A stretch of 64,000 nucleotides of DNA from Hufsiella ginkgonis (GTDB lineage Bacteria > Bacteroidota > Bacteroidia > Sphingobacteriales > Sphingobacteriaceae), in assembly GCF_009834915.1 (NCBI RefSeq), contig NZ_WVHS01000007.1, forward strand, positions 62,001 to 126,000, given 5' to 3'. The notes beneath the pieces were generated by a model. That model had not been told where the DNA came from. It searched no databases and worked only from the letters and a program-made list of their open reading frames with translations. Position numbers and translations under genes: made by a program. Below, piece by piece: positions 2,288 to 64,000 of this stretch (the first letter of the stretch is position 1; the number at the start of each line of letters is the position of its first letter).

Positions 2288-2301
2288 ACTGATCACCGAA
2301 A

Positions 2302-2336
2302 CTGATAACTAATTACTGAACCCGACAACTCACCTC
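2302..2336. repeat. Heptad tandem repeat E1 (CTGATAA theme)
   Basis: Five imperfect 7-base units start at 2302, 2309, 2316, 2323 and 2330. The first is CTGATAA and the second CTAATTA. A partly similar ACTGATC lies just before at 2288. The run ends two bases before the ATG of the next gene and there is no visible complementary arm. It belongs to the 7-base-period family seen in many gaps of this window. Confidence 0.6.
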
Positions 2337-8784: not shown

Positions 8785-9744
8785 ATGCCGATCACCTCCT
8801 TATTTAACGTGCGGTACCCTATTGTCCAGGCAGGTATGGTTTGGTGCAGTGGCTGGAAACTTGCCTCGGCCGTATCGAATGCAGGCGGTTTGGGCCTCAT
8901 CGGCGCCGGTTCCATGTACCCGGATAACCTGCGAAACCATATTCGCAAGTGCGCAGCCGCTACCGCGAAGCCCTTTGGGGTAAATGTGCCGCTGTTGTAT
9001 CCTGATGTGAAACAGCTGATCGACATCATCGTGGAAGAGTCCGTACGGATCGTTTTTACGTCTGCCGGCAACCCCGCTGCATGGACAGGATACTTAAAAG
9101 ACCGGGGCATTACCGTAGTACACGTAGTGGCCAGCCAGAAATACGCCAAACGTGCGGAAGCGGCAGGGGCCGACGCCGTCGTTGCCGAAGGGTTCGAAGC
9201 CGGCGGGCACAACGGCCGCGAGGAAACTACCACGCTCTGCCTCATCCCCATGGTAACAGACGTGGTATCGGTACCGGTTATCGCTGCCGGCGGAATCGCT
9301 TCCGGCAAAGCCATGCTCGCCGCCTTTGCTTTAGGGGCGGAGGGCGTACAGGTGGGATCTCTCTTCGCCGCCGCGGAAGAATCCTCTGCGCATCCGCTCT
9401 TTAAAGAAGCCGTTGTTCGTTCCGGCGAAGGTGATACCCGCCTCAGCATGAAAGGATTGATGCCCGTAAGGTTGCTACGGAACGATTTCTCCCGAGAGGT
9501 AGACCAGGCCGACCGCCGCGGGGCCTCCGCCGAAGAATTACGCGCTTTATTAGGTACCGGTCGCGCAAAACTGGGTATGTTTGAAGGCGACCTCCAAAAC
9601 GGCGAGCTCGAAATAGGCCAGGCAGCTGCCCTGGTAAACCAGGTAAAACCCGCCGCAACTATCGTTAACGACCTCTGGAACGGCTTCCTGCACGAAAAAA
9701 CCCGCATCGCCAGCCTGCCTGCCGAACTGATCACTGACAATTGA
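8785..9744 (+). CDS. Nitronate monooxygenase / FabK-like FMN enzyme
   Basis: A 319-residue TIM-barrel flavoprotein. IVQAGMVWCSGWKLASAVSNAGG at the start, FEAGGHNGRE near 140 and IAAGGIASGKAML...GAEGVQVGSLF near 170-195 are the FMN and active-site segments of the 2-nitropropane dioxygenase family, which includes nitronate monooxygenase and the enoyl-ACP reductase FabK. The conserved His of GGHNGR is present. Length suits either, and context does not separate them. The last codons lie inside heptad repeat E2, which leads into the acylphosphatase gene 7 bases further on. The two genes are probably co-transcribed. Confidence 0.85.
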   Translation: MPITSLFNVRYPIVQAGMVWCSGWKLASAVSNAGGLGLIGAGSMYPDNLRNHIRKCAAATAKPFGVNVPLLYPDVKQLIDIIVEESVRIVFTSAGNPAAWTGYLKDRGITVVHVVASQKYAKRAEAAGADAVVAEGFEAGGHNGREETTTLCLIPMVTDVVSVPVIAAGGIASGKAMLAAFALGAEGVQVGSLFAAAEESSAHPLFKEAVVRSGEGDTRLSMKGLMPVRLLRNDFSREVDQADRRGASAEELRALLGTGRAKLGMFEGDLQNGELEIGQAAALVNQVKPAATIVNDLWNGFLHEKTRIASLPAELITDN

Positions 9745-9751
9745 TAACTGC
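9727..9751. repeat. Heptad tandem repeat E2 (CTGATCA theme), overlapping a gene end
   Basis: Units CTGATCA (9727), CTGACAA (9734) and TTGATAA (9741), then CTGC, directly before the ATG at 9752. The first two and a half units are also the last codons of the nitronate monooxygenase gene, and its TGA stop lies inside the third. It shares the theme of E1, E7, E10 and E12. Confidence 0.55.
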
Positions 9752-10027
9752 ATGAAACACCTCAACCTCACCGTCTATGGCCGCGTACAGCGCGTTTTCT
9801 TCCGGGCATCTACCAAAGCGGTAGCCGACCAGCTTGGCGTGAAAGGCCTGGTGACCAATCGGCCCGATGGTACCGTGTATATCGAAGCCGAGGGCGACGA
9901 TTTCGCTATGGAAAATTTCCTGGAGTGGTGTCACGAAGGCCCGATCAACGCAAAAGTCGAAAAAGTGGAAACCTCAGAAGGCGAACTCAAAAACTATCGT
10001 AATTTTGAGGTCGTTAAAAAAGCCTAG
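9752..10027 (+). CDS. acyP: Acylphosphatase
   Basis: A 91-residue single-domain protein of exactly family length. It opens LNLTVYGRVQRVFFR, the phosphate-binding loop with the catalytic Arg (residue 18), and has LVTNRPDGTVYIEAEG with the catalytic Asn near 36. Family members hydrolyse carboxyl-phosphate bonds such as those of acetyl- or 1,3-bisphosphoglycerate. One oddity is an Arg at residue 13 where the loop normally has Gly (VQGVxFR). This could tighten the phosphate loop or lower activity. It starts 7 bases after the nitronate monooxygenase stop. Confidence 0.92.
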   Translation: MKHLNLTVYGRVQRVFFRASTKAVADQLGVKGLVTNRPDGTVYIEAEGDDFAMENFLEWCHEGPINAKVEKVETSEGELKNYRNFEVVKKA

Positions 10028-10045
10028 GTTTAAGCGTTCGGCAGG

Positions 10046-10080
10046 AGCTGACAGCTGATAGCTGATAGCTGGTAGCTATA
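10046..10080. repeat. Heptad tandem repeat E3 (AGCTGAT theme)
   Basis: Five consecutive 7-base units start at 10046, 10053, 10060, 10067 and 10074: AGCTGAC, AGCTGAT (twice), AGCTGGT, AGCTATA. The array ends five bases before the GTG start of the next gene. It is the cleanest array of the set, with a constant AGCT in every unit. Confidence 0.75.
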
Positions 10081-10085
10081 CAAGA

Positions 10086-11582
10086 GTGTCAACAATCAAG
10101 AAATTCGCGGGACAGACCGCCGTGTACGGGATCAGCACGATCGTCTCCAGGCTGCTCTATTCCATTCTCACGCCCGTTTTTACCACTGCTTATTCGGCAG
10201 GAGTGTATGCCATTTTCACCAACCTGTACAGCTGGGCTTCCCTCATCGGACCGCTGCTCGCATTCGGGATGGAAACCACTTTTTTCAGGTTCCTGAACAA
10301 ACAGGAGAGCGAAAAACAACAGGTATACAACAATACCTTCATCAGTGTTGCCTCGCTGGTGTTCCTGTTCTTTATCTCCACCATTTTCTTTGCGCGCGAT
10401 ATCGCCGCTTTCCTGCAGTCGGGGGTGAACCTGGATGATTACACCAACTACGTCCGCTATTTTATCGTGATACTTTGCACCGACTCTTTGGCCGTAATCC
10501 CTTTCGCAAAACTGCGGGCAGACGGCCGGCCCTTCCGTTACTCGCTCATCAAGTTCACTAACATCCTGCTGCAATTCCTGCTTAACCTGGTATTCATTTT
10601 TGTGATCCCGTTCATCATCGACCACCATTGGGCCGGCGGCGGGTTCCTGGCTTCGTGGTACCGCCATGGCTGGATCGGCTACGTATTTATCGCAAACCTG
10701 GCTGCGAGCGTGCTTACGCTGCTCATGCTGCTGCCCGAAGTAATGCAGGTAAAACCTGATTTCAGCCGGTCGCTCTCCCTGAAGATGCTTTCTTATAGTT
10801 TCCCCGTACTGGTAGCCAATCTTTCCTTCATTGTGAACGAAACGTTCGATAAGATCATGATGACGAAATTGTTACCGGTACAGCAACAGGTGGATGTTGG
10901 GATCTACGGTGCGTGCGCCAAGATCTCGATCTTTCTCAGCATTTTTATCAACGCTTTCCGGCTGGGGGCCGAACCATTCTTTTTCAGCCATGCGAAGAAT
11001 AAAAACTCCGGCGAAACCTATTCGCGCATCATGGATTATTTCATTATCGTAGTTTGTGTGATCTATGTCGGTATAGTTGGCAATATCGAAATTCTCAAGC
11101 ATTTTATCCACGCCAGGAATGCGGCCGAACAGGCGGTTTACTGGTCGGGTTTACCAGTGGTTCCCATCCTGTTATTCGGTTATGTAAGCCTTGGGATCTA
11201 TATTAACCTGTCGATCTGGTATAAACTGTCGGACCAGACGCGCTACGGCCTTTATATTTCGGGGACCGGTGCCATTCTTACCATCATCCTCAACTTTATT
11301 TTCATCCCCAAACACTCCTACATGGCCGCAGCCTGGGTGTCCGTTACGGCGTACACTACCATGATGGTGCTTTCGTACCTGCTTGGTCAGAAAAACTATC
11401 CCATCCCCTACCGCACCGGCAAAAATATTATCTATCTTGTGTCTTCGATCGTGCTGGCTTACCTGTCGTTCGTGGTGCTTAAACAGAACATTTTCGCAGG
11501 CAATGCCCTAACGGTAGCGTACCTGGCGGCAATCTGGTTTGCGGAACGCAAAGAGCTCAAAAAATTATGGAAAACAATCTGA
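10086..11582 (+). CDS. Polysaccharide flippase-type membrane protein (MATE/MOP superfamily)
   Basis: The 498-residue protein has about 14 hydrophobic segments in the layout of Wzx/MurJ-like MOP exporters. The N-terminus [23 protein letters not shown] is the basic amphipathic opening followed by the first helix seen in polysaccharide biosynthesis proteins of Bacteroidota. It likely flips a lipid-linked sugar across the inner membrane. The start is GTG at 10086, immediately after heptad array E3. Its 3' end overlaps dut by 16 bases, so the two are translationally coupled. This flippase-dut-TPR-DUF4292 order recurs in Bacteroidota as far as I recall. Confidence 0.83.
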
Positions 11583-15514: not shown

Positions 15515-16756
15515 ATGAGATACGCGAGGCTGCTGCTTCTTATTACCGGGTGCCTGTTTTTGGCAGGCGCTGCGCAGGCACAAACCAGTGCCGAGCTTAA
15601 ACGCCGCAAAGATGCCCTGTCGCGCGAAATCGAACAACTGAACAGCACACTCAACGAAACCTCGAGCAGCAAACGCCTTTCGCTGAAGCAGATCAGCACG
15701 CTGAATGCCCAGATAAGGCTGCGCGAGCGAAAGATCAATACCATGAACTCGGAGATCAGGCTGCTCGACAACCAGATCTCCGACAATACCAGTACCGTTC
15801 GCGCCCTGCAGACCCAGCTTACCCGTTTAAAAAAGGAGTATGCGGGCATGGTGTTATTCGCGTTCCGCAACCAGAGCGCATACAGCAAGATCATGTTCCT
15901 ATTTGCCTCGAAAGACTTTAACCAGGGATATAAACGGCTAAAATACCTCCAGGAGTTTGCCGCGTACCGGCAAAAACAAGCAAGGTATATCGAGGAGACG
16001 CGCGGCGATCTGAACGAAAAGATCATCGAGCTCGGTCACAATAAAGACGAAAAGAGCCATATCCTGAGCGACCAGGAACAAGAGCGGCAAACGCTCGGAA
16101 AACAAAAATCTACGCAGGCGAAAGTTCTGAAGAGCCTCACTAAACAAGAGAAAGAGTATAAACAGGAGCTCGCACAAAAGCAGCGGGAATCTGCCAGGCT
16201 GAACAGGGCGGTAATGGACGCCATCAGGCGCGAAATTGAAGAGGCCCAGCGCGCAGCAGACGCCAATGCGGTAAAAAATGGTAATGCCCCCGCACCGCGT
16301 ACCAGCACCAAAACCAGTATCCTGGCCGCAACACCCGAATCTGCCAAGTTATCTTCCGATTTCCTGGGAAGCCGCGGCAACCTGCCATGGCCGGTCGAAA
16401 AAGGAGCCATCGCCGAGGGTTTCGGGATCCATAAGTACGGGGTGAACGTAAATGTTGAAAACCTGGGGATCGATATCGAAACCGGCGCAGGCTCTACCGT
16501 AAGGGCCGTATTTTCCGGCACCGTGGGCCGCATCACCAACCTGAACGGGTCGCAAACGGTGATCATCCGCCACGGCGAGTATTTCAGCGTCTACTCAAAC
16601 CTGCGCGGCGTAACCGTAACCAGCGGGCAAAAAATAAATACCAAACAACCGATCGGTACCGTGGCCACCAATTCGGAAGACGGGACCATCAGGCTGCATT
16701 TCGAGATCTATAAAGGGCTCAGCCCGCAAAACCCGGAGAATTGGTTGGCGAATTAG
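15515..16756 (+). CDS. EnvC-like murein hydrolase activator with degenerate M23 domain
   Basis: The 413-residue protein has a signal peptide (LLLLITGCLFLAGAAQAQ), a long coiled coil (about residues 25-255) and a C-terminal LytM/M23 domain (about 295-413). The zinc site looks broken: LGIDIE keeps the Asp but the preceding His is absent, YSNL replaces YxHL, and RLHFEI replaces HLHFEI. That is the pattern of EnvC/NlpD proteins, which switch on amidases at the septum instead of cutting peptidoglycan themselves. I start it at the ATG at 15515, where the signal peptide begins, rather than the TTG 30 bases upstream. Confidence 0.87.
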   Translation: MRYARLLLLITGCLFLAGAAQAQTSAELKRRKDALSREIEQLNSTLNETSSSKRLSLKQISTLNAQIRLRERKINTMNSEIRLLDNQISDNTSTVRALQTQLTRLKKEYAGMVLFAFRNQSAYSKIMFLFASKDFNQGYKRLKYLQEFAAYRQKQARYIEETRGDLNEKIIELGHNKDEKSHILSDQEQERQTLGKQKSTQAKVLKSLTKQEKEYKQELAQKQRESARLNRAVMDAIRREIEEAQRAADANAVKNGNAPAPRTSTKTSILAATPESAKLSSDFLGSRGNLPWPVEKGAIAEGFGIHKYGVNVNVENLGIDIETGAGSTVRAVFSGTVGRITNLNGSQTVIIRHGEYFSVYSNLRGVTVTSGQKINTKQPIGTVATNSEDGTIRLHFEIYKGLSPQNPENWLAN

Positions 16757-16757
16757 A

Positions 16758-16867
16758 TTTTCAGTAATCAGCGGCCAGCCTGATTTGAGTGGCTAAAGGC
16801 AATTTCTCACATGATATTCAGGCAGCAACAAGCTGATTGCTGACCGCTGATAGCTGATTACTAAAAA
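16758..16867. repeat. Two-armed heptad element E4 (ATCAGC/GCTGAT theme)
   Basis: The left arm at 16758-16772 (TTTTCAGTAATCAGC) is matched by its reverse complement at 16853-16867 with 14 of 15 positions equal. Before the right end, four in-phase 7-base units start at 16832, 16839, 16846 and 16853 (AGCTGAT, TGCTGAC, CGCTGAT, AGCTGAT). The element begins directly after the EnvC-like stop codon. Here the next start (tatA) is about 100 bases downstream with its own promoter box, so this copy is tied to the upstream gene end. Confidence 0.72.
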
Positions 16868-16939
16868 TAACAAAACCGTAACAAATTCGTTCTCGTACAT
16901 AAGGTAGTACCAAATAAATCATTTCCTTTTAAAAATCTT

Positions 16940-19312: not shown

Positions 19313-19435
19313 TGGCTGCCGGCTGTTGGCCGATGCTTGAAAAAATTAACGAAAAAGAGCCTGATCAAGAGATGAAACATATATTACACCACCCGGCAAA
19401 GCTATCAGCCACCAGCCACCAGCTATCAGCCCGCC
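19313..19435. repeat. Two-armed heptad element E5 (GGCTG/CAGCC theme)
   Basis: Left arm: 7-base units start at 19313, 19320, 19327 and 19334 (TGGCTGC, CGGCTGT, and so on). Right arm: units start at 19401, 19408, 19415, 19422 and 19429 (GCTATCA, GCCACCA, GCCACCA, GCTATCA, GCCCGCC) and touch the ATG at 19436 with no gap. 19314-19334 and 19404-19424 are complementary at 16 of 21 positions. The spacer holds TACACCACCC (19385-19394), also present at the same place in E11. Confidence 0.75.
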
Positions 19436-20371
19436 ATGCTTAGCCGCGTCGCAGACAGTTTGTACTGGCTTAGTCGCTATGTAGAGCGCAGCGACGGCAT
19501 TCTTCGGATGCTGAAGATCAACTACGCCACTTCCCAGGATTCGCTCCAGGGATTTACCTGGCGCCCGGTAATGAAGATCTTCTCGGGGTTAGATGAAGAC
19601 CAGATAAAGGCGATCGACATGGACAGCCGCGCGGTATTACTGTCGATGGTTACCGATAAAGAAAACCCGGGTTCGGTACTGAACATCATTACCCATGCCC
19701 GCGAAAATGCAAGGAGCGTACAGGACCACATCACCAAGGATCTCTGGCAGTGCCTGAACGAATACTACCACACCATCAAAGATCCGGCGATCCAGACTTC
19801 GTTAATGAAAGACGACCCGATTTCGGTGCTGGATGTGCTGATCCGCCAGGTAATGCTCTATTACGGCACGGCCGAGATTACCATGGCGCGCGGCGAAGGC
19901 AGCAGCTTCATACGGATCGGAAAATACCTGGAACGGGCGATCCAGTCGGTCGATATTCTCGACGTAAAATTCGGATCGCTCAGCAAAAACCCCGACTTAC
20001 TTACGGACACCACGTACTGGAAGCACCTGCTCCTGTCTATCGGCGGGTACGAGCTGTACCTTAAAACGTACCGGCAGGGCTTCGATGCCGAAAATGTGCT
20101 CGAGCAGGTAGTACTTAACAATGACTTTCCGCGCTCGGTACTTTATTCTATCAACCAACTGCAGCGTTATTTCGAGCGGCTTAGCAGCGATCTCAATGCC
20201 GATAGCCACCGGCAAGTGCTTTTCCTGATCGGCAGGCTCCAAAGCCGGGTAAAGTACAGCTCGGTGCAAAGCATCCGCCAGGAAGGCCTCCATGACTATC
20301 TCACCGAATTGAAAACAGAAGTTTTTGGCATAGGGAATGCCCTCAACCGTCATTATTTTGCATATTCGTAG
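19436..20371 (+). CDS. Alpha-E domain protein (DUF403)
   Basis: This 311-residue all-helical protein opens MLSRVADSLYWLSRYVERSD, the signature of the alpha-E family, in which the conserved Arg and Glu residues recur at regular helical spacing. The family is found almost only beside circularly permuted ATP-grasp and transglutaminase genes, as here. Its biochemical role is unproven; a part in the same peptide-forming pathway is the common prediction. The ATG is directly preceded by the heptad units of E5 with no room for a Shine-Dalgarno sequence. Confidence 0.9.
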   Translation: MLSRVADSLYWLSRYVERSDGILRMLKINYATSQDSLQGFTWRPVMKIFSGLDEDQIKAIDMDSRAVLLSMVTDKENPGSVLNIITHARENARSVQDHITKDLWQCLNEYYHTIKDPAIQTSLMKDDPISVLDVLIRQVMLYYGTAEITMARGEGSSFIRIGKYLERAIQSVDILDVKFGSLSKNPDLLTDTTYWKHLLLSIGGYELYLKTYRQGFDAENVLEQVVLNNDFPRSVLYSINQLQRYFERLSSDLNADSHRQVLFLIGRLQSRVKYSSVQSIRQEGLHDYLTELKTEVFGIGNALNRHYFAYS

Positions 20372-25939: not shown

Positions 25940-25988
25940 AAAAGTTGGAACAAATAAATAGCGATTAAGAAGTTAGTAAAATCACCAA

Positions 25989-26016
25989 ACGTATAACGTA
26001 TAACGTAAAACGTCAC
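25989..26016. repeat. Heptad tandem repeat E6 (ACGTATA theme)
   Basis: Four 7-base units start at 25989, 25996, 26003 and 26010: ACGTATA twice, ACGTAAA, ACGTCAC. The array ends three bases before the tldE ATG. No left arm is found. The ACGT core is shared with E9. Confidence 0.72.
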
Positions 26017-26019
26017 AAC

Positions 26020-27357
26020 ATGGCAATCTTAACCAAAGAAGAGGCTCGGGCCCTGATGCAAAAAGTATTAAGCTATTCGAAAGCCGACGAATGCGAAGTT
26101 AACCTTTCCGGATCTGACGGCGGGAACATTCGTTACGCCCGTAACTCCGTGTCGACCAGCGGCGGCACCAGCTCGGGCAGCCTGGTGGTACAATCGTCGT
26201 TCGGGAAGAAAGTCGGCGTAGCAACCATTAACGAGTTCGATGACGCCTCCCTGGAAAAGGTGGTCCGCAGGGCGGAAGAGCTGGCAAGGCTTGCCCCCGA
26301 GAATCCTGAGTTCATGAAGAACCTGGGCGCGCAAACCTACGATCCGCCACCGGCTACTTTTGTGACCTCCACGGCCAATATCACGCCCAAACAAAGAACG
26401 GATATGGTGGCGCAGAGCCTCCGGATCGCGAAAGAAAACAAGCTTACGGCCGCCGGGTTCCTGGAAAACAGCGCCGGGTACTCCGCAATGATGAATACCA
26501 GCGGTGTTTTCGCTTATAATACGTCAACCAATGTAAATTTCAACGTTACCCTCCGTACCGAAGACGGGAAAGGTTCGGGGTATGCTTCCAAGGGATATAA
26601 CGACGTAACCAAGCTCGACGTAGCTTCCGCGACCCGGATCGCAGCGCAAAAAGCCGCCGGTTCTTCGGCAGCCAAAGCGATTGAACCCGGAAAATATACC
26701 GTGATCCTGGAACCCGCGGCGGGCATCGTGCTGCTGGAAAACCTCTACTTTGGCCTGGATGCCCGCAGCGCCGATGAGGGACGCAGCTTCCTGAGCGCAC
26801 CGGGAGGCAAGACCAAACTCGGTCAGAAACTAGTAGATGAGCGGATCACTATTTATTCAGACCCTAACGATCCGGACCTGCCAACCAGCTCCTGGAACGG
26901 CGATGGGCGCCCGATGAAAAAGACCACCTGGATAGACAAGGGTGTGATCAAAAACCTGAGCTACTCGCGCTACTGGGCGGAGAAAAAGGGCGTTCCTGCA
27001 TTGCCCGGCCCGGATGGTATCACCATGGTGGGCGGGAACGCCTCCCTCGAAGACCTGATCAAAAGCACCGAAAAAGGGATCCTGGTAACGCGGTTATGGT
27101 ACATAAGGCCGGTAGATCCACAGACGCTGCTGTTCACCGGCCTCACCCGCGATGGTACTTTTTACATCGAAAACGGCAAGATTGCCTTCCCGGTGAAGAA
27201 TTTCCGCTTCAATGAAAGCCCCATTATCATGCTGAACAACCTGGATGCCCTGGGCAAACCGGAAAGGACCGTGAGCGGCGAATCCGGCGTGCACGCTATG
27301 ATCCCGCCAATGAAGATCAGAGACTTTACTTTCACCTCACTTTCTGATGCCGTTTAA
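26020..27357 (+). CDS. TldE/PmbA-family protein, partner of TldD
   Basis: The 445-residue protein is a TldD/PmbA-family member without the HExxxH metal motif, as expected for the non-catalytic TldE half. Conserved segments include KADECEVNLSGSDGGNIRYARN near 20-45, GFLENSAGY near 147 and GDGRPMKKTTWIDKGVIKNL near 295-315. It has no signal peptide of any kind, in contrast to the Tat-tagged TldD before it. If the pair is a heterodimer, TldE would have to ride along with TldD, or the two work in different compartments. Confidence 0.88.
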   Translation: MAILTKEEARALMQKVLSYSKADECEVNLSGSDGGNIRYARNSVSTSGGTSSGSLVVQSSFGKKVGVATINEFDDASLEKVVRRAEELARLAPENPEFMKNLGAQTYDPPPATFVTSTANITPKQRTDMVAQSLRIAKENKLTAAGFLENSAGYSAMMNTSGVFAYNTSTNVNFNVTLRTEDGKGSGYASKGYNDVTKLDVASATRIAAQKAAGSSAAKAIEPGKYTVILEPAAGIVLLENLYFGLDARSADEGRSFLSAPGGKTKLGQKLVDERITIYSDPNDPDLPTSSWNGDGRPMKKTTWIDKGVIKNLSYSRYWAEKKGVPALPGPDGITMVGGNASLEDLIKSTEKGILVTRLWYIRPVDPQTLLFTGLTRDGTFYIENGKIAFPVKNFRFNESPIIMLNNLDALGKPERTVSGESGVHAMIPPMKIRDFTFTSLSDAV

Positions 27358-41430: not shown

Positions 41431-41524
41431 AACACGAAGCCTAAAACAGGAAGCCCGTTAGTTAAAAGACATTTTTAAAACTAAACCCGGGCTTTTAGCT
41501 TTAAGCTTTGTGTTTTAAGCCCAA
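41431..41524. repeat. Two-armed heptad element E8 (AAGCTTT theme)
   Basis: 41431-41457 and 41488-41514 are reverse complements at 21 of 27 positions; some mismatches are G-U compatible in RNA. Right-arm 7-base units start at 41490, 41497, 41504, 41511 and 41518 (GGCTTTT, AGCTTTA, AGCTTTG, TGTTTTA, AGCCCAA), ending one base before the ATG at 41526. The left arm has AAGC-bearing units in the same period. It is the longest paired element in the window, with a 30-base loop. Confidence 0.78.
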
Positions 41525-41525
41525 A

Positions 41526-42074
41526 ATGGAAGTTCCTGACTCAGAAATACTCGAAAAGTTTGCTTCAGAACGGACACGTAATGATGCCTTTAACCTGTTG
41601 CTGAAAAAGTACCAGCAAAAAATTTACTGGCATGTACGCCGCATGGTGATCGATCATGACGATACGGACGACCTGGTGCAGGAAGTATTTATCAAGGTTT
41701 GGAAGAGCCTCGCTAATTTCAGGAATGACTCACAGCTGTACACCTGGCTGTACCGCATCGCTACCAATGAGGCCATCACTTTCCTGAATCGCAAAAAGCA
41801 GAAGAATAACATTTCGCTTGACGATGTTTCGCCAGACTTGTCGGCTTCGTTAACAGAAGGCGCGTATTTTAACGGGAACACCGCCCAGTTAAAATTACAG
41901 CAGGCATTGTTAACGCTTCCCGAAAAACAACGTCTCGTTTTTAACATGAAATACTACGACGACCTGAAGTATGAAGAGATCTCCGACATCCTCGGAACAA
42001 GTGTAGGCGCGCTTAAAGCTTCTTACCACCTGGCGGTAAAGAAAATAGAGCGACATTTATTGAGCCACGATTAA
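41526..42074 (+). CDS. ECF-type RNA polymerase sigma factor
   Basis: 182 residues: sigma region 2 (YQQKIYWHVRRMVIDHDDTDDLVQEVFIKVWKSL, about 25-58; YTWLYRIATNEAI) and region 4 (LPEKQRLVFNMKYYDDLKYEEISDILGTSVGALKASYH). It should direct RNA polymerase to a small regulon. The linked downstream genes encode a one-helix membrane protein and a small exported protein, the usual ECF sigma, anti-sigma and periplasmic-sensor arrangement. I start at the ATG at 41526; an upstream TTG lies within the heptad arm of E8. Confidence 0.9.
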   Translation: MEVPDSEILEKFASERTRNDAFNLLLKKYQQKIYWHVRRMVIDHDDTDDLVQEVFIKVWKSLANFRNDSQLYTWLYRIATNEAITFLNRKKQKNNISLDDVSPDLSASLTEGAYFNGNTAQLKLQQALLTLPEKQRLVFNMKYYDDLKYEEISDILGTSVGALKASYHLAVKKIERHLLSHD

Positions 42075-43044: not shown

Positions 43045-43144
43045 CGTCAGACGTTCCTGAAAAATGCATAAGGGCACCGGCACTTGTGCCGGTATGCTTA
43101 AAATTGATGGAATCAAACGTCATATGTCTCACGTCATACGTCAA
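43043..43144. repeat. Two-armed heptad element E9 (ACGTCAT theme) with inner hairpin
   Basis: Left units AACGTCA (43043) and GACGTTC (43050) overlap the last two bases of the upstream stop codon. Right units start at 43117, 43124, 43131 and 43138 (ACGTCAT, ATGTCTC, ACGTCAT, ACGTCAA), ending five bases before the ATG at 43150. Arms 43041-43054 and 43131-43144 match at 11 of 14. Between them ACCGGCAC and GTGCCGGT form a perfect compact dyad (43076-43093). Confidence 0.72.
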
Positions 43145-43149
43145 CCCCA

Positions 43150-44328
43150 ATGAACCGGCAGCTCTTTCTCTTAAATAACGCACAAACTTCATCGTCGCCA
43201 AGACTGCTGGAAATCGACCGGGCGGAGGGGAATTACCTGTATGATCCCCAGGGAAAAGCGTATCTCGACCTCGTATCAGGTTTTGCGGTGAGCAACATCG
43301 GTCATCGCCACCCAAAAGTGGTAAACGCCATTAAAGATCAGGCAGATAAATACATGCATCTTACCGTGTATGGCGAGTTCGTTCAATCTCCGCAGGTGCG
43401 GTTTGCACAAAAGCTGGTGTCGGTGCTGCCGGGTGCACTTAATTCCGTGTACTTTGTAAATTCGGGTGCCGAAGCTACGGAAGGCGCCCTGAAGCTGGCC
43501 AAGCGCTATACGGGCAGAGGCGGGATAATTTCCTGCCACCATGCATACCACGGCAGCACGCAAGGCGCACTTAGCGTAATGGGAAATTCCTATTACAAGG
43601 ATGCCTACCGTCCGCTCCTTCCGGGAATCGGATTTATCACCTTCAACGAAATCGCTGACCTGGAGCACATTACCCAGGAAACAGCTTGTGTGATCATCGA
43701 AACCATCCAGGGCGAGGCCGGTATCCGCGTACCTGATAAAGCCTACTTCTCGGCCCTGAGGAAAAGATGTGATGAAACGGGCACGCTGCTGATCATGGAC
43801 GAGATCCAGACCGGGTTTGGGCGCACCGGGAAGCTCTTTGCCTTCGAACACTTCGGCATTGTGCCGGATATCCTGCTGCTCGCCAAAGGCATGGGCGGCG
43901 GAATGCCCATTGGCGCATTTGTAGCCTCCCGCGAAAAAATGGACGTTTTGAAAGATAATCCCATCCTGGGGCATATCACCACATTCGGCGGACACCCGGT
44001 ATGCTGCGCCGCGGGACTGGCATCGCTGGAAGCGATCCTGGAAGAAGACCTGGTAAAAGACGTTGATAAAAAAGAAGCGCTTTTCCGCGAGTTACTGGTG
44101 CATCCCGCTATCAGGAAAGTACGCGGCATGGGCCTGATGCTCGCCGTCCAGGTGGATGCGTTTCAGCAGGTGGAAAGGATCAGCAAGCAATGCCTGGAGG
44201 GTGCGTATCCCCTCATCATCGATTGGTTTCTCCACTGCGAAACCGCTTTACGCATTGCGCCGCCCCTAACTATCACTGAATCCGAAATTCGCATGGCCTG
44301 CAACGCCATCCTGGCCGCGCTGGATTAA
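43150..44328 (+). CDS. Class III PLP-dependent aminotransferase
   Basis: 392 residues of the acetylornithine/4-aminobutyrate aminotransferase fold. VNSGAEATEGALKLAKRYTGR near 98-118, IIETIQGEAGI near 180, IMDEIQTGFGRTGKLFAFEH near 215-234 (PLP-binding Asp) and LLAKGMGGGMPIGA near 244-257 with the Schiff-base Lys are intact. The enzyme moves an amino group from an amine or amino acid to 2-oxoglutarate. Substrate (ornithine, lysine, 4-aminobutyrate or other) is not settled by the sequence, and no arginine or lysine pathway genes adjoin. Its stop overlaps that of the cupin gene. Confidence 0.9.
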   Translation: MNRQLFLLNNAQTSSSPRLLEIDRAEGNYLYDPQGKAYLDLVSGFAVSNIGHRHPKVVNAIKDQADKYMHLTVYGEFVQSPQVRFAQKLVSVLPGALNSVYFVNSGAEATEGALKLAKRYTGRGGIISCHHAYHGSTQGALSVMGNSYYKDAYRPLLPGIGFITFNEIADLEHITQETACVIIETIQGEAGIRVPDKAYFSALRKRCDETGTLLIMDEIQTGFGRTGKLFAFEHFGIVPDILLLAKGMGGGMPIGAFVASREKMDVLKDNPILGHITTFGGHPVCCAAGLASLEAILEEDLVKDVDKKEALFRELLVHPAIRKVRGMGLMLAVQVDAFQQVERISKQCLEGAYPLIIDWFLHCETALRIAPPLTITESEIRMACNAILAALD

Positions 44329-47318: not shown

Positions 47319-47430
47319 TTAGTAATTAGTTTTCGGTCACCAGTTGGATCCGTATTAATTGCAAGTATTACCACCAGGCCTTACATCTTATTAGACCACA
47401 TCGACTGATCACTGACAACTGATCATTTGC
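47319..47430. repeat. Two-armed heptad element E10 (AACTGAT theme)
   Basis: Left units start at 47319, 47326, 47333 and 47340 (TTAGTAA, TTAGTTT, TCGGTCA, CCAGTTG) directly after the stop codon. Right units start at 47403, 47410, 47417 and 47424 (GACTGAT, CACTGAC, AACTGAT, CATTTGC), ending six bases before the next ATG. 47328-47346 and 47402-47420 are complementary at 14 of 19 positions. The right arm shares its theme with E1, E2 and E12. Confidence 0.72.
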
Positions 47431-47436
47431 AATCCT

Positions 47437-48444
47437 ATGAAAATAGCTGTATTGTCGCCTATCGCCTGGCGCACTCCGCCCCGCCACTACGGTCCCTGGG
47501 AACAAGTCGCGTCAAATATCGCCGAAGGACTGGTGGCGGCTGGTCATGATGTTACTTTATTTGCCTCCGGCGATTCCGTTACTTCCGGAAAACTGGATGC
47601 GGTGATCGCCGAAGGCTATGAAGAAGACCGTACCCAGGACGCCAAGGTGTGCGAATGCCTGCACATCAGCAACCTGATGGAAAAGGCGCACCAGTTCGAC
47701 CTCGTACACAATAACTTCGATTTCCTGCCCCTTACCTGGTCGCGGATGGTGAAAACGCCGTTTATTACCACCATACACGGGTTTTCTTCACCCAGGATCA
47801 TTCCTGTGTACAAGAAATACAACGACACCAGCGATTACGTTTCCATCAGTCATGCAGACCGCAGCGAGGAATTACGCTACCTGGCCACGATCTATAACGG
47901 GCTAAATACTTCCGACTTCGAATTTAATGCCAACCCCGGCGATTACCTGCTCTATTTCGGCCGCATCCACCACGATAAAGGCACCGCCGAAGCGATCGAT
48001 ATCGCCAAAAAGACCTGCAAGCGGCTGATTATCGCCGGGATCATACAGGATACCGCCTATTTCAACGAGAAGGTAAAGCCGTTCCTTGGTGGGGACATCG
48101 GGTTTATCGGCCACGCCGGACCGGAAAAACGAAACGAATTACTGGGAAATGCGGCCGCCCTGCTCCACCCGATCAACTTCAACGAGCCGTTCGGTATGAG
48201 CGTGGCGGAAGCGATGCTTTGCGGAACGCCCGTGATCGCTTTCAACAAAGGATCGATGCCCGAACTGATCGAGCATGAAAAAACAGGCTTCCTGGTGACC
48301 ACCCCCACGGAAGCCGCGGAAGCTGTTACACGACTGGCATCCATAGACCGCAGTTATACCCGCGAACGGGCAACGGCAAGATTCTCGCAGGAAACCATGG
48401 TGGCCGATTACCTGGAAGCTTACCGAAAAATCCTCAGCCGCTAA
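47437..48444 (+). CDS. Glycosyltransferase family 4 protein
   Basis: 335 residues of GT-B fold: SPIAWRTPPRHYGPWEQVASNIAEGLVAAGHDVTLFAS near 7-44, LLYFGRIHHDKGTAEAIDIAKK near 167-188, and the donor-site EPFGMSVAEAMLCGTPVIAFNKGSMPELI near 250 with the paired Glu of retaining GT4 enzymes. Its partner is the larger glycosyltransferase upstream, and its stop codon overlaps that of the facing GH130 gene, so the three form a compact glycan module of unknown product. Confidence 0.9.
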   Translation: MKIAVLSPIAWRTPPRHYGPWEQVASNIAEGLVAAGHDVTLFASGDSVTSGKLDAVIAEGYEEDRTQDAKVCECLHISNLMEKAHQFDLVHNNFDFLPLTWSRMVKTPFITTIHGFSSPRIIPVYKKYNDTSDYVSISHADRSEELRYLATIYNGLNTSDFEFNANPGDYLLYFGRIHHDKGTAEAIDIAKKTCKRLIIAGIIQDTAYFNEKVKPFLGGDIGFIGHAGPEKRNELLGNAAALLHPINFNEPFGMSVAEAMLCGTPVIAFNKGSMPELIEHEKTGFLVTTPTEAAEAVTRLASIDRSYTRERATARFSQETMVADYLEAYRKILSR

Positions 48445-58518: not shown

Positions 58519-58634
58519 GCTGCCGGTAGTCAGTGATCAGTTGCCGGGGGATTTTGGAGATTAAAGGATAAGTCCTATATTGAGATCGGCTTAATAATTA
58601 ACGAGCATCAAACTGATAACTGACCACTGATAAC
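58519..58634. repeat. Two-armed heptad element E12 (ATCAGT/ACTGAT theme)
   Basis: Left units start at 58519, 58526, 58533 and 58540 (GCTGCCG, GTAGTCA, GTGATCA, GTTGCCG) right after the icd stop. Right units start at 58611, 58618 and 58625 (AACTGAT, AACTGAC, CACTGAT), nine bases before the next ATG plus AAC. 58526-58542 and 58618-58634 are complementary at 14 of 17 positions. Same theme as E10. Confidence 0.75.
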
Positions 58635-58643
58635 AAAAAAATC

Positions 58644-59003
58644 ATGAAAAAGATCATTCTCTCCATCTCCTTTATCTTCACGTTTGTCATCTGCTTCGCA
58701 GCGATCGTTGCGGACCTCACCGGTACCTGGAAAGGTCTCATTAAGTTCGGCGATCAGAAACTTGAGTTAACCTACAAGCTGAAAGCGGAGGGCGAAAAAC
58801 TGACCGGTTCGATCGTTTCCTCTTACGGCGAGATCCCGCTTACCGATGGTAAAATAGCCGGCAGCGACTTCTCGTATAAGATCGATATCGGCGGTGGCCC
58901 GCAAGAGTCGAAAGGAAAATTCATGGGCGATTCTATCCAGATCACCTCCACCTTTGGTGGAAACTCTGTGACCAATACATTTAAAAGAGTGGCAGAAAAA
59001 TAA
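58644..59003 (+). CDS. Small exported beta-barrel-like protein
   Basis: 119 residues: a signal peptide (IILSISFIFTFVICFAA) and a small beta domain, DLTGTWKGLIKFGDQKLELTYKLKAEGEKLTGSI near 28-62, DGKIAGSDFSYKID, GDSIQITSTFGGNS. The alternating strands and the GTWxG opening resemble lipocalin-like or DUF-type small barrels seen in Bacteroidota secreted proteins. The function is unknown. It stands alone between icd and manA, with heptad element E12 before it and a terminator after it. Confidence 0.75.
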   Translation: MKKIILSISFIFTFVICFAAIVADLTGTWKGLIKFGDQKLELTYKLKAEGEKLTGSIVSSYGEIPLTDGKIAGSDFSYKIDIGGGPQESKGKFMGDSIQITSTFGGNSVTNTFKRVAEK

Positions 59004-62979: not shown

Positions 62980-63062
62980 AATAATGGACAATGAGCGGTG
63001 CAATAATTTAAGCACGGAGGCTATTGTTTATTGATCCTTGTCCATTGTTCATTATCTTGTAA
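62980..63062. repeat. Two-armed heptad element E13 (CCATTGT/ACAATGG theme) in a divergent gap
   Basis: Left units start at 62980, 62987, 62994 and 63001 (AATAATG, GACAATG, AGCGGTG, CAATAAT). Right units start at 63021, 63028, 63035, 63042, 63049 and 63056 (CTATTGT, TTATTGA, TCCTTGT, CCATTGT, TCATTAT, CTTGTAA). 62981-62993 and 63043-63055 are complementary at 12 of 13. Unlike the others it lies between divergent genes (recF and the M14-like gene), so it cannot only be a terminator. Confidence 0.78.
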
Positions 63063-63078
63063 CCGAAAACCTTACCAC

Positions 63079-64000
63079 ATGACATTAAAATTCAACCTGT
63101 TTACGCTAGGTATTGGAATCTGCATGGGCTCATCAGCCTTAGCGCAGGATTATAGTACCTATTCGCAATTCAATCAGCGTGTTACCAGTCTCGCAGCCGC
63201 GAACTCCTCCATGGTGAACATACAATCGCTCACAAAGACAACCGGTGGCAAAGATATCTGGATGATTACCATCGGAACCGGTAATACCGGCCAGAAGCCA
63301 GGCATTGCGATAGTAGGCGGAGTTGAAGGCTCTCATTTGCTCGGCGCTGAGCTTGCGCTGGGATTTGCCGAAAAGCTCGTAAAAGGCGCCGCCACCGATA
63401 GTATCAGGGCGCTCCTTGCAAAAACCACCTTCTACGTGTTTCCCAATATGAGCCCCGATGCCGGCGAGCAATATTTCGCCAAACTTCGCTATGCGCGGAA
63501 CGGCAACGCCCGCAGCACGGATGATGACCGTGACGGGAAAGTGAACGAAGACGGCTTCGAAGACCTCGACGGCGATGGCAGGATCACCTGGATGCGCGTG
63601 GAGGACCCTACCGGGAAATACCGGGTGAACCCAGAAGACCCGCGATCGCTGGTCCTGGCAAATCCCGCCAAAGGCGAAACCGGGAAATACCTGCTTTTCA
63701 GCGAAGGCATCGACAATGATAAGGATGGCCAGTTTAACGAAGATGGCGAGGGGGGGATCCAGTTCAATAAGAACATGAGCTTCAACTACCCTAACTTTCA
63801 ACCCGGAGCGGGAGAATTTGCTGTTTCTGAAAACGAGAACAGGGCGCTGCTCGATCGTTTATTTGAGCTATCGAACGTTTTTGCCGTGGTAACCTTTGGT
63901 CCGAATAACAACCTGTCGGCACCCGTTGTATTTAGTCCTGCCGGGATCTCGAAAAGGATCATTACCGGGTATTTTGAGCCTGATACAAAGATCAACGCAC
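63079..64000 (+). CDS. M14-like zinc carboxypeptidase homologue, probably inactive, 3' end missing
   Basis: 307 residues are visible; the frame runs off the window. A signal peptide (FNLFTLGIGICMGSSALAQ) leads to an M14 carboxypeptidase fold. Where active members have HxxE, this one has Glu83-Gly-Ser-His86, the ligands in swapped order. FNYPNF stands where an Asn-Arg pair is usual, and VVTFGPNN where the third zinc His is expected, though SENENRAL is kept. Two Asp-rich stretches (DDDRDGKVNEDG near 148-159, DNDKDGQFNEDG near 212-223) look like calcium-binding loops. A divergent metal site or a pseudoenzyme is likely. Confidence 0.78.
   Translation, partial: MTLKFNLFTLGIGICMGSSALAQDYSTYSQFNQRVTSLAAANSSMVNIQSLTKTTGGKDIWMITIGTGNTGQKPGIAIVGGVEGSHLLGAELALGFAEKLVKGAATDSIRALLAKTTFYVFPNMSPDAGEQYFAKLRYARNGNARSTDDDRDGKVNEDGFEDLDGDGRITWMRVEDPTGKYRVNPEDPRSLVLANPAKGETGKYLLFSEGIDNDKDGQFNEDGEGGIQFNKNMSFNYPNFQPGAGEFAVSENENRALLDRLFELSNVFAVVTFGPNNNLSAPVVFSPAGISKRIITGYFEPDTKINA

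Follow-up and report, generated by a model that had tools for sequence, protein, structure and literature searches.

Seven-base repeat arrays and stop-anchored hairpins at gene boundaries in Hufsiella ginkgonis

Several genes of Hufsiella ginkgonis are preceded by tandem arrays of seven-base units, and we lean towards the view that these start-side arrays are part of a spreading, lineage-specific class of DNA hairpin elements, which are built of seven-base units and tolerated at gene boundaries. The elements share an anatomy, a period of 7 and an anchor at the upstream stop codon, their presence is lineage-specific, they swap at one junction and one of their types is dispersed. As the units differ yet share the period of 7, relatives lack them, one type is dispersed and types swap, we infer that they arise and spread as DNA, by copying, and that they are tolerated rather than used. 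The full element would be an inverted repeat, in which a left array starts at the upstream gene's stop codon and is followed by a spacer and by a right array in the opposite orientation. The right array would run towards the next start codon and become the leader of the next cistron, and lone start-side arrays would represent incomplete or decayed forms. Judging from the placement, the non-coding nature of the junction would let the elements be tolerated, and the next gene would be translated in the usual Shine-Dalgarno (SD)-independent way from a repeat-derived leader, the last bases of which are kept outside the stem. The likeliest engine, we speculate, would be copying at the DNA level with template switching between the arms.

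The genome comprises 5.2 Mb in 25 contigs, and its nearest named relatives are Sphingobacteriaceae (Bacteroidota). Using Tandem Repeats Finder (TRF) and a lag-7 scan, we located 92 period-7 arrays in 1.92 Mb, compared with 0-27 arrays for each of the other periods from 4 to 13 (6, 4, 27, 3, 14, 0, 4, 24 and 2 for periods 4, 5, 6, 8, 9, 10, 11, 12 and 13, respectively). Only 6 of the 92 lie inside called genes, and the tandem seven-base units are thus found in intergenic DNA. A lag-7 score of at least 10 within positions -60 to -1 was obtained for 45 of 1526 starts, versus 3, 4, 2 and 1 starts for lags 5, 6, 8 and 9. Genes were called with a codon-score script, and some called starts are therefore wrong, such as the TTG start of MatE in several relatives. 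The ARCTG-type pattern ARCTGNNARCTGNNARCTG has 87 matches in the genome and the reversed control has none. Several unit families coexist in this one genome, including AGCTGAT, AACGTAT, AATAGRR and AGCTATC; within one array locus the unit sequence is homogeneous, and it differs between loci. We also observed near-perfect (AGCTATC)n arrays of approximately 15-18 units at C12 810015-810124 (L126) and C1 852730-852861 (L124), each starting within the TAG stop of the preceding gene.

Many arrays are one half of an inverted pair. Among the 46 arrays of an initial 1.12-Mb sample, 25 have an inverted-complement partner that lies no more than 200 nt away and outscores 95% of random flanks, and when at least 90% of the flanks of other arrays had to be beaten, inverted partners were found for 24 and direct partners for 7 of the 46 arrays. 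Folding of all intergenic regions of 40-600 nt yielded 47 heptad hairpins in 1.92 Mb, compared with 1, 1, 0, 0, 0 and 1 hairpins for periods 5, 6, 8, 9, 10 and 11; 10 of 166 hairpins, being of intermediate periodicity, were placed in neither the heptad nor the other class. Heptad hairpins occur in 36 of 494 tandem, 8 of 107 convergent and 3 of 197 divergent regions (tandem versus divergent, P 0.0017). In the tandem regions, 31 of 36 heptad stems start within 13 nt of the upstream stop codon (null 14.3) and only 5 end as close to the start codon (null 14.4), and for the 52 non-heptad tandem hairpins the corresponding numbers are 11 (null 11.5) and 16 (null 11.4). The order of the units is not clearly kept between the arms (P ≤0.05 in 4 of 42; mean match 19.9 versus 16.9 when permuted), a match which was not used as evidence because arms are selected by their own match and an own-versus-cross comparison is equally biased. 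Candidates for a common loop motif were too weak (CAGTTCC in 5 and GCGCC in 7 of 46 loops), and the promoter motif TAnnTTTG showed no clear difference between heptad (5/31) and other tandem regions (77/322). By eye, some arms start with GTAG, which, like CGTC, is a tag at the foot of REP palindromes.

The sequence-only reading had placed the arrays directly in front of start codons and had described the start regions of these mRNAs as built of repeats with no SD sequence. The leaders of several mRNAs do consist of repeats, and when 62 arrays in tandem intergenic regions were compared with random placement (4000 shuffles), array ends within 15 nt of the start codon were more frequent than expected (22/62, null 13.9, P 0.007). 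Within 6 nt of the start, 9 of 62 were counted (null 7.3, P 0.27). On the other side, 23 of 62 arrays lie within 15 nt of the upstream stop codon (null 13.9, P 0.001) and 18 within 6 nt (null 7.3), a number reached in none of the 4000 shuffles (P below 0.0003). We therefore rejected the start codon as the main anchor, as anchoring at the stop is stronger and the stems tend to keep clear of the 13 nt upstream of the start. The orientation of the arrays follows the same geometry: forward ARCTGA arrays of the tandem regions are nearer to the start in 15 of 22 cases, with 10 forward arrays within 15 nt of it (null 5.0), and reverse TCAGYT arrays are nearer to the stop in 17 of 19, the remaining 21 tandem-region arrays belonging to other families or being undecided. 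The lack of an SD sequence at repeat-led genes is real but reflects a genome-wide rule and is no special feature of these genes, because SD-like motifs are near the shuffle level throughout the genome (101 of 1526 starts versus 87 in shuffles).

The window, that is the whole stretch of 64,000 nt that was analysed, contains four heptad hairpins, at 16757-16868, 19313-19418, 41431-41514 and 58526-58627; all features in it are given for the forward (+) strand. The left arm of the first (16757..16779) lies directly 3' of the stop codon of an M23 peptidase gene, which ends at 16756, and is 83% complementary to the right arm (16846..16868) within the array 16832-16858 (fold z -2.8). In the second, the left arm at 19313..19330, downstream of the CP_ATPgrasp stop codon (19303), is 78% complementary to 19401-19418 in the right-arm array AGCTATC/AGCCACC (19400..19430; lag-7 score 16), which leaves a gap of 5 nt to the Alpha-E start at 19436. 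The third has its left arm (41431..41457) downstream of the transketolase stop codon, 78% complementary to a right arm (41488..41514) with a GCTTTAA array (41491-41516; lag-7 score 11, fold z -4.2), with a gap of 9 nt to a sigma-factor start at 41526. In the fourth, the left arm at 58526..58542, downstream of the stop codon of an isocitrate/isopropylmalate dehydrogenase gene, is 88% complementary to 58611-58627 in the right-arm array AACTGAT (58611..58630; lag-7 score 9), which precedes a start at 58644 that was missing from the earlier list.

That list had named seven starts, with arrays ending 0-9 bases before them. Period-7 arrays are present at all seven, two of them weak, but the strict lag-7 ends lie 5-21 nt away, and the shorter range includes decayed partial units. 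Besides the arrays before 19436 and 41526, they are an (AGCTGAT)n array at 10046..10077 (lag-7 score 21, TRF score 50), 8 nt from the GTG start of the MatE flippase gene at 10086, for which a search for an inverted partner found none; an (AACGTAT)n array at 25988..26013 (lag-7 score 17), 6 nt from the second PmbA/TldD gene at 26020, with no inverted partner above random; an ACGTCAT heptad array at 43113..43143 (lag-7 score 10), 6 nt from an aminotransferase start at 43150, with no heptad inverted partner; and the two weak arrays. One of these, at 2300..2317, is decayed and lacks a heptad inverted partner (lag-7 score 7, gap of 21 nt to the aldose epimerase start at 2339, fold z 0.26), and the other, at 47404..47422, has a lag-7 score of 8 and a gap of 14 nt to the glycosyltransferase start at 47437; scores of this height are also reached by many starts, 8 by 4.6% and 7 by 6.3% of 1526. 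A clear heptad partner was thus found for only 2 of the 7 listed arrays and for none of the 5 before 2339, 10086, 26020, 43150 and 47437. A further degenerate period-7 array at 63022-63053 lies 25 nt upstream of the called start at 63079.

One array extends into the preceding gene, as had been proposed. The heptad array at 9726..9750 (lag-7 score 8) overlaps the nitronate monooxygenase stop codon (9742-9744), encodes the terminal residues LITDN before this stop and ends 1 nt before the acylphosphatase start at 9752. The 80 homologues align no further than residues 297-316 of 319. In silico, removal of one unit lets the frame run to 366 amino acids and removal of two gives LITA; addition of one, two or three units alters the last residue alone, from LITDN to LITDH.

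The distribution among other genomes is patchy. The ARCTG pattern is present in 22 of 60 genomes (counting our own), in many cases with different wobble bases; the 59 relatives in this set include no other member of the genus. In five species of one related genus the matches number 20, 1, 3, 0 and 0 (3 of 5 positive). In 200 kb each of G037 and G113 we found 7 and 6 heptad hairpins with differing units (other periods, 0-1 and 0-2). Two in each genome are divergent, and those in tandem regions are anchored at the stop in 1 of 3 cases (G037) and in all 4 (G113); the pattern is weaker in these genomes than in our own. The 80 named loci of relatives contain 14 heptad hairpins versus 0-6 at other periods, 12 of them tandem and 2 convergent. 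Ten of the 12 tandem hairpins start at the stop codon; they are not independent, because 9 of the 12 sit at one orthologous junction. For two gene pairs of the window, we compared the junction with that of the best 29 of 37 and the best 29 of 55 matching relatives. The TldD-TldD junction measures 80 nt here and 2-34 nt in 22 of 29 relatives, the CP_ATPgrasp-Alpha-E junction 132 nt here and 9-31 nt in 17 of 29, so that both pooled are short (2-34 nt) in 39 of 58 relatives. Long junctions carry other period-7 arrays in L234, L237, L247, L251 and L255, and an insert of the AATTAACAGGAT kind in L243, L244 and L246; before the Alpha-E start, at the same stop-start junction, L252, L253, L258, L259 and L267 have a different hairpin insert with CCCCCTAAAGGGGG arms.

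We followed the junction between the acylphosphatase and MatE genes across Pedobacter-type relatives. Of the 80 named loci, 62 have the gene order monooxygenase, acylphosphatase, MatE. In these 62 the acylphosphatase and MatE genes are separated by 0-31 nt (13 loci), by 40-145 nt (48 loci) or, once, by 480 nt. By eye, we assigned three main junction types: A, (AATCTAA)n, in 18 rows; B, GATACTT-like, in 10; and C, ATTG/TCAAATC-like, in 13. These hairpin types replace one another. The three genes of L011 and L015 have identities of 0.933, 0.927 and 0.962, but their junctions, of types C and B, reach 0.535. Type labels are mixed among one another on the gene trees: the 10 rows of type B need 10, 7 and 9 changes on the monooxygenase, acylphosphatase and MatE trees, with at least 7, 3 and 8 of these changes forced by well-supported branches. 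Type B is also dispersed: 13 genomes have 1-17 matches each (E 0.01), and at least 5 of the 13 contain near-full-length second copies. In 13 genomes, type C matched at full length once per genome, with arm-sized matches elsewhere, and dispersal is therefore not general to all types. The flippase gene is a mosaic between Pedobacter species: L011 and L029 are 0.945-0.987 identical in the monooxygenase, the acylphosphatase and the junction, but only 0.70 in MatE, where the identity drops beyond base 60.

Within each type, the identity of the junction exceeds that of four-fold sites in all 105, 45 and 78 pairs of types A, B and C (228 in total), at 0.61 versus 0.36, 0.72 versus 0.40 and 0.89 versus 0.45, and in each of the three types the arms are better kept than the loops (0.83-0.96 versus 0.60-0.84). 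The excess of arms over loops and of the junction over four-fold sites may indicate a function. Among 5-7 neighbouring regions the junction ranks first or second in conservation, and nearby intergenic regions are about equally conserved; these controls and the swapping of types weaken the case for strong purifying selection.

A rather unlikely alternative, to our mind, is that the pairs are functional intercistronic RNA hairpins, the arms of which would fold downstream of the stop codon and thereby govern termination, the stability of the message or the uncoupling of the gene that follows. This would agree with the location of heptad hairpins at stops and their rarity in divergent regions, and with the kept arms and variable loops of the three Pedobacter types. 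Consensus folding gave 15 pairs for type B, with 92.4% of cells pairing, a value reached by 4 of 500 shuffles; however, it gave 21 pairs for type C, where pairing is at shuffle level (181 of 500 reach it), and no consensus structure for type A. Two window folds are strong (z -4.2 and -2.8), but 8 of 10 have z above -2. Mismatches in tandem heptad stems show no G-U bias (G-U:A-C 52:52), in contrast to other tandem hairpins (56:27, P 0.002); the ratio is 22:15 for convergent and 8:2 for divergent heptad hairpins, and in the named relatives' loci 2:9 for heptad and 100:68 for other hairpins. In tandem regions, the right arm is followed by TTTT in 3 of 36 heptad hairpins versus 19 of 52 others (convergent, 2/8 versus 3/28), and intrinsic terminators were rejected for the tandem cases on this ground. 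The heptad hairpins resemble such terminators in lying 3' of the stop codon in tandem and convergent regions, and differ from them in usually lacking a T-run, in a stem that begins at the stop codon and in the absence of a G-U bias. An Rfam search of the window and three loci returned no described family, with tRNA as the only match, in the loci. Because of the missing G-U bias and the mixed consensus and shuffle pairing across types, we favour an origin at the DNA level and claim no function for the stem.

Plain slippage microsatellites in unconstrained DNA, with inverted partners made by local template switching and no spreading, would account for the long perfect arrays (14-16 units at C1 852747-852860 and C12 810021-810123) and for the local homogeneity of units. 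This is an unlikely explanation overall, as the same few unit families recur genome-wide (87 ARCTG-type matches), type B copies are dispersed and length changes between species amount to 1-2 bases, never 7.

Seven-base repeats before start codons have been described previously. MacGregor (2015, PMC4679880) reports TAACTGA direct repeats from Beggiatoaceae, some Cyanobacteria and five Bacteroidetes and proposes that they are binding sites of a translational regulator. As in our genome, these heptamers are mostly intergenic, in forward orientation and a few nucleotides before starts, they overlap the end of the upstream gene with LITDN followed by the stop, recognisable ribosome-binding sites are few, and close relatives of Aequorivita and Gramella have shorter intergenic regions free of repeats; start-side heptamers, forward orientation, the LITDN overlap and repeat-free relatives are thus already described in that paper. 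A single heptamer predominates in that data set (PMC4679880), its relatives seldom occur as repeats, and one inverted repeat is listed among 170 sets, whereas here several unit families and many stop-anchored inverted pairs are found. A regulator of this kind, a proposal near the view of the sequence-only reading, would fit the excess of arrays within 15 nt of starts and the type A array, whose end lies 2-4 nt upstream of the MatE start in 14 of 18 relatives. We nevertheless consider it improbable, since the unit sequence varies from locus to locus within a genome and from species to species at a single junction, so that a single site-specific protein could not read all arrays, and since stop-side arrays and convergent regions are left unexplained. 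Contingency loci, in which a change in unit number would switch expression or alter the C-terminus of the monooxygenase, deserve hardly any credence: 7-nt-step indels are reported to separate two Cyanothece strains (PMC4679880), but extra units leave the C-terminus nearly unchanged in silico, the genes downstream have ordinary housekeeping or envelope roles, and the predicted change in steps of 7 bases is absent between species, the right type A array differing by 1-2 bases among 15 aligned rows.

REP, BIME and REPIN sequences are dispersed intergenic palindromes, mainly near gene ends. The heptad hairpins resemble them in these respects and differ in arms made of heptads, an overall length often of 60-130 nt and a variable unit sequence. 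We found no transposase or copying enzyme for the elements, and RAYT/REP membership was rejected because the PF01797 (Y1/RAYT transposase) profile has no match in this genome; as a control, it matched 5 of 14 genomes. In horizontal regulatory transfer and switched intergenic regions, different intergenic alleles likewise lie between near-identical flanking genes; the alleles here differ in being hairpin types, and one of these types is dispersed through the genomes as well. Titles and opening lines of abstracts in the open-access literature, subscription papers lying outside this search, gave no description of stop-anchored heptad hairpins.

More tentatively, spreading DNA hairpins might point to something wider. 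Bacteroidota may possess a self-spreading, stop-anchored hairpin class that is set by the period of 7, enters tight operon junctions and supplies the next leader, with whole alleles exchanged between species and neighbouring genes repeatedly given new intercistronic hairpins. If many start-side repeats are one arm of an inserted and swapped stop-anchored pair, the start-codon rule would in part be a by-product of element geometry. Operon junctions in Bacteroidota would then be rebuilt by a repeat with a fixed period rather than a fixed sequence, which raises the question of which process copies DNA in seven-base steps.

Elsewhere in the genome, C12 762250-762850 (within L186) and C19 464956-465350 (within L154) share both the heptad arms and the spacer sequence, which makes them copies of a single dispersed element some hundreds of bases long. 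At C1 474741-482526 (L134, L135), a run of adjacent genes has ATAG-type heptad hairpins between them, unlike most of the genome.
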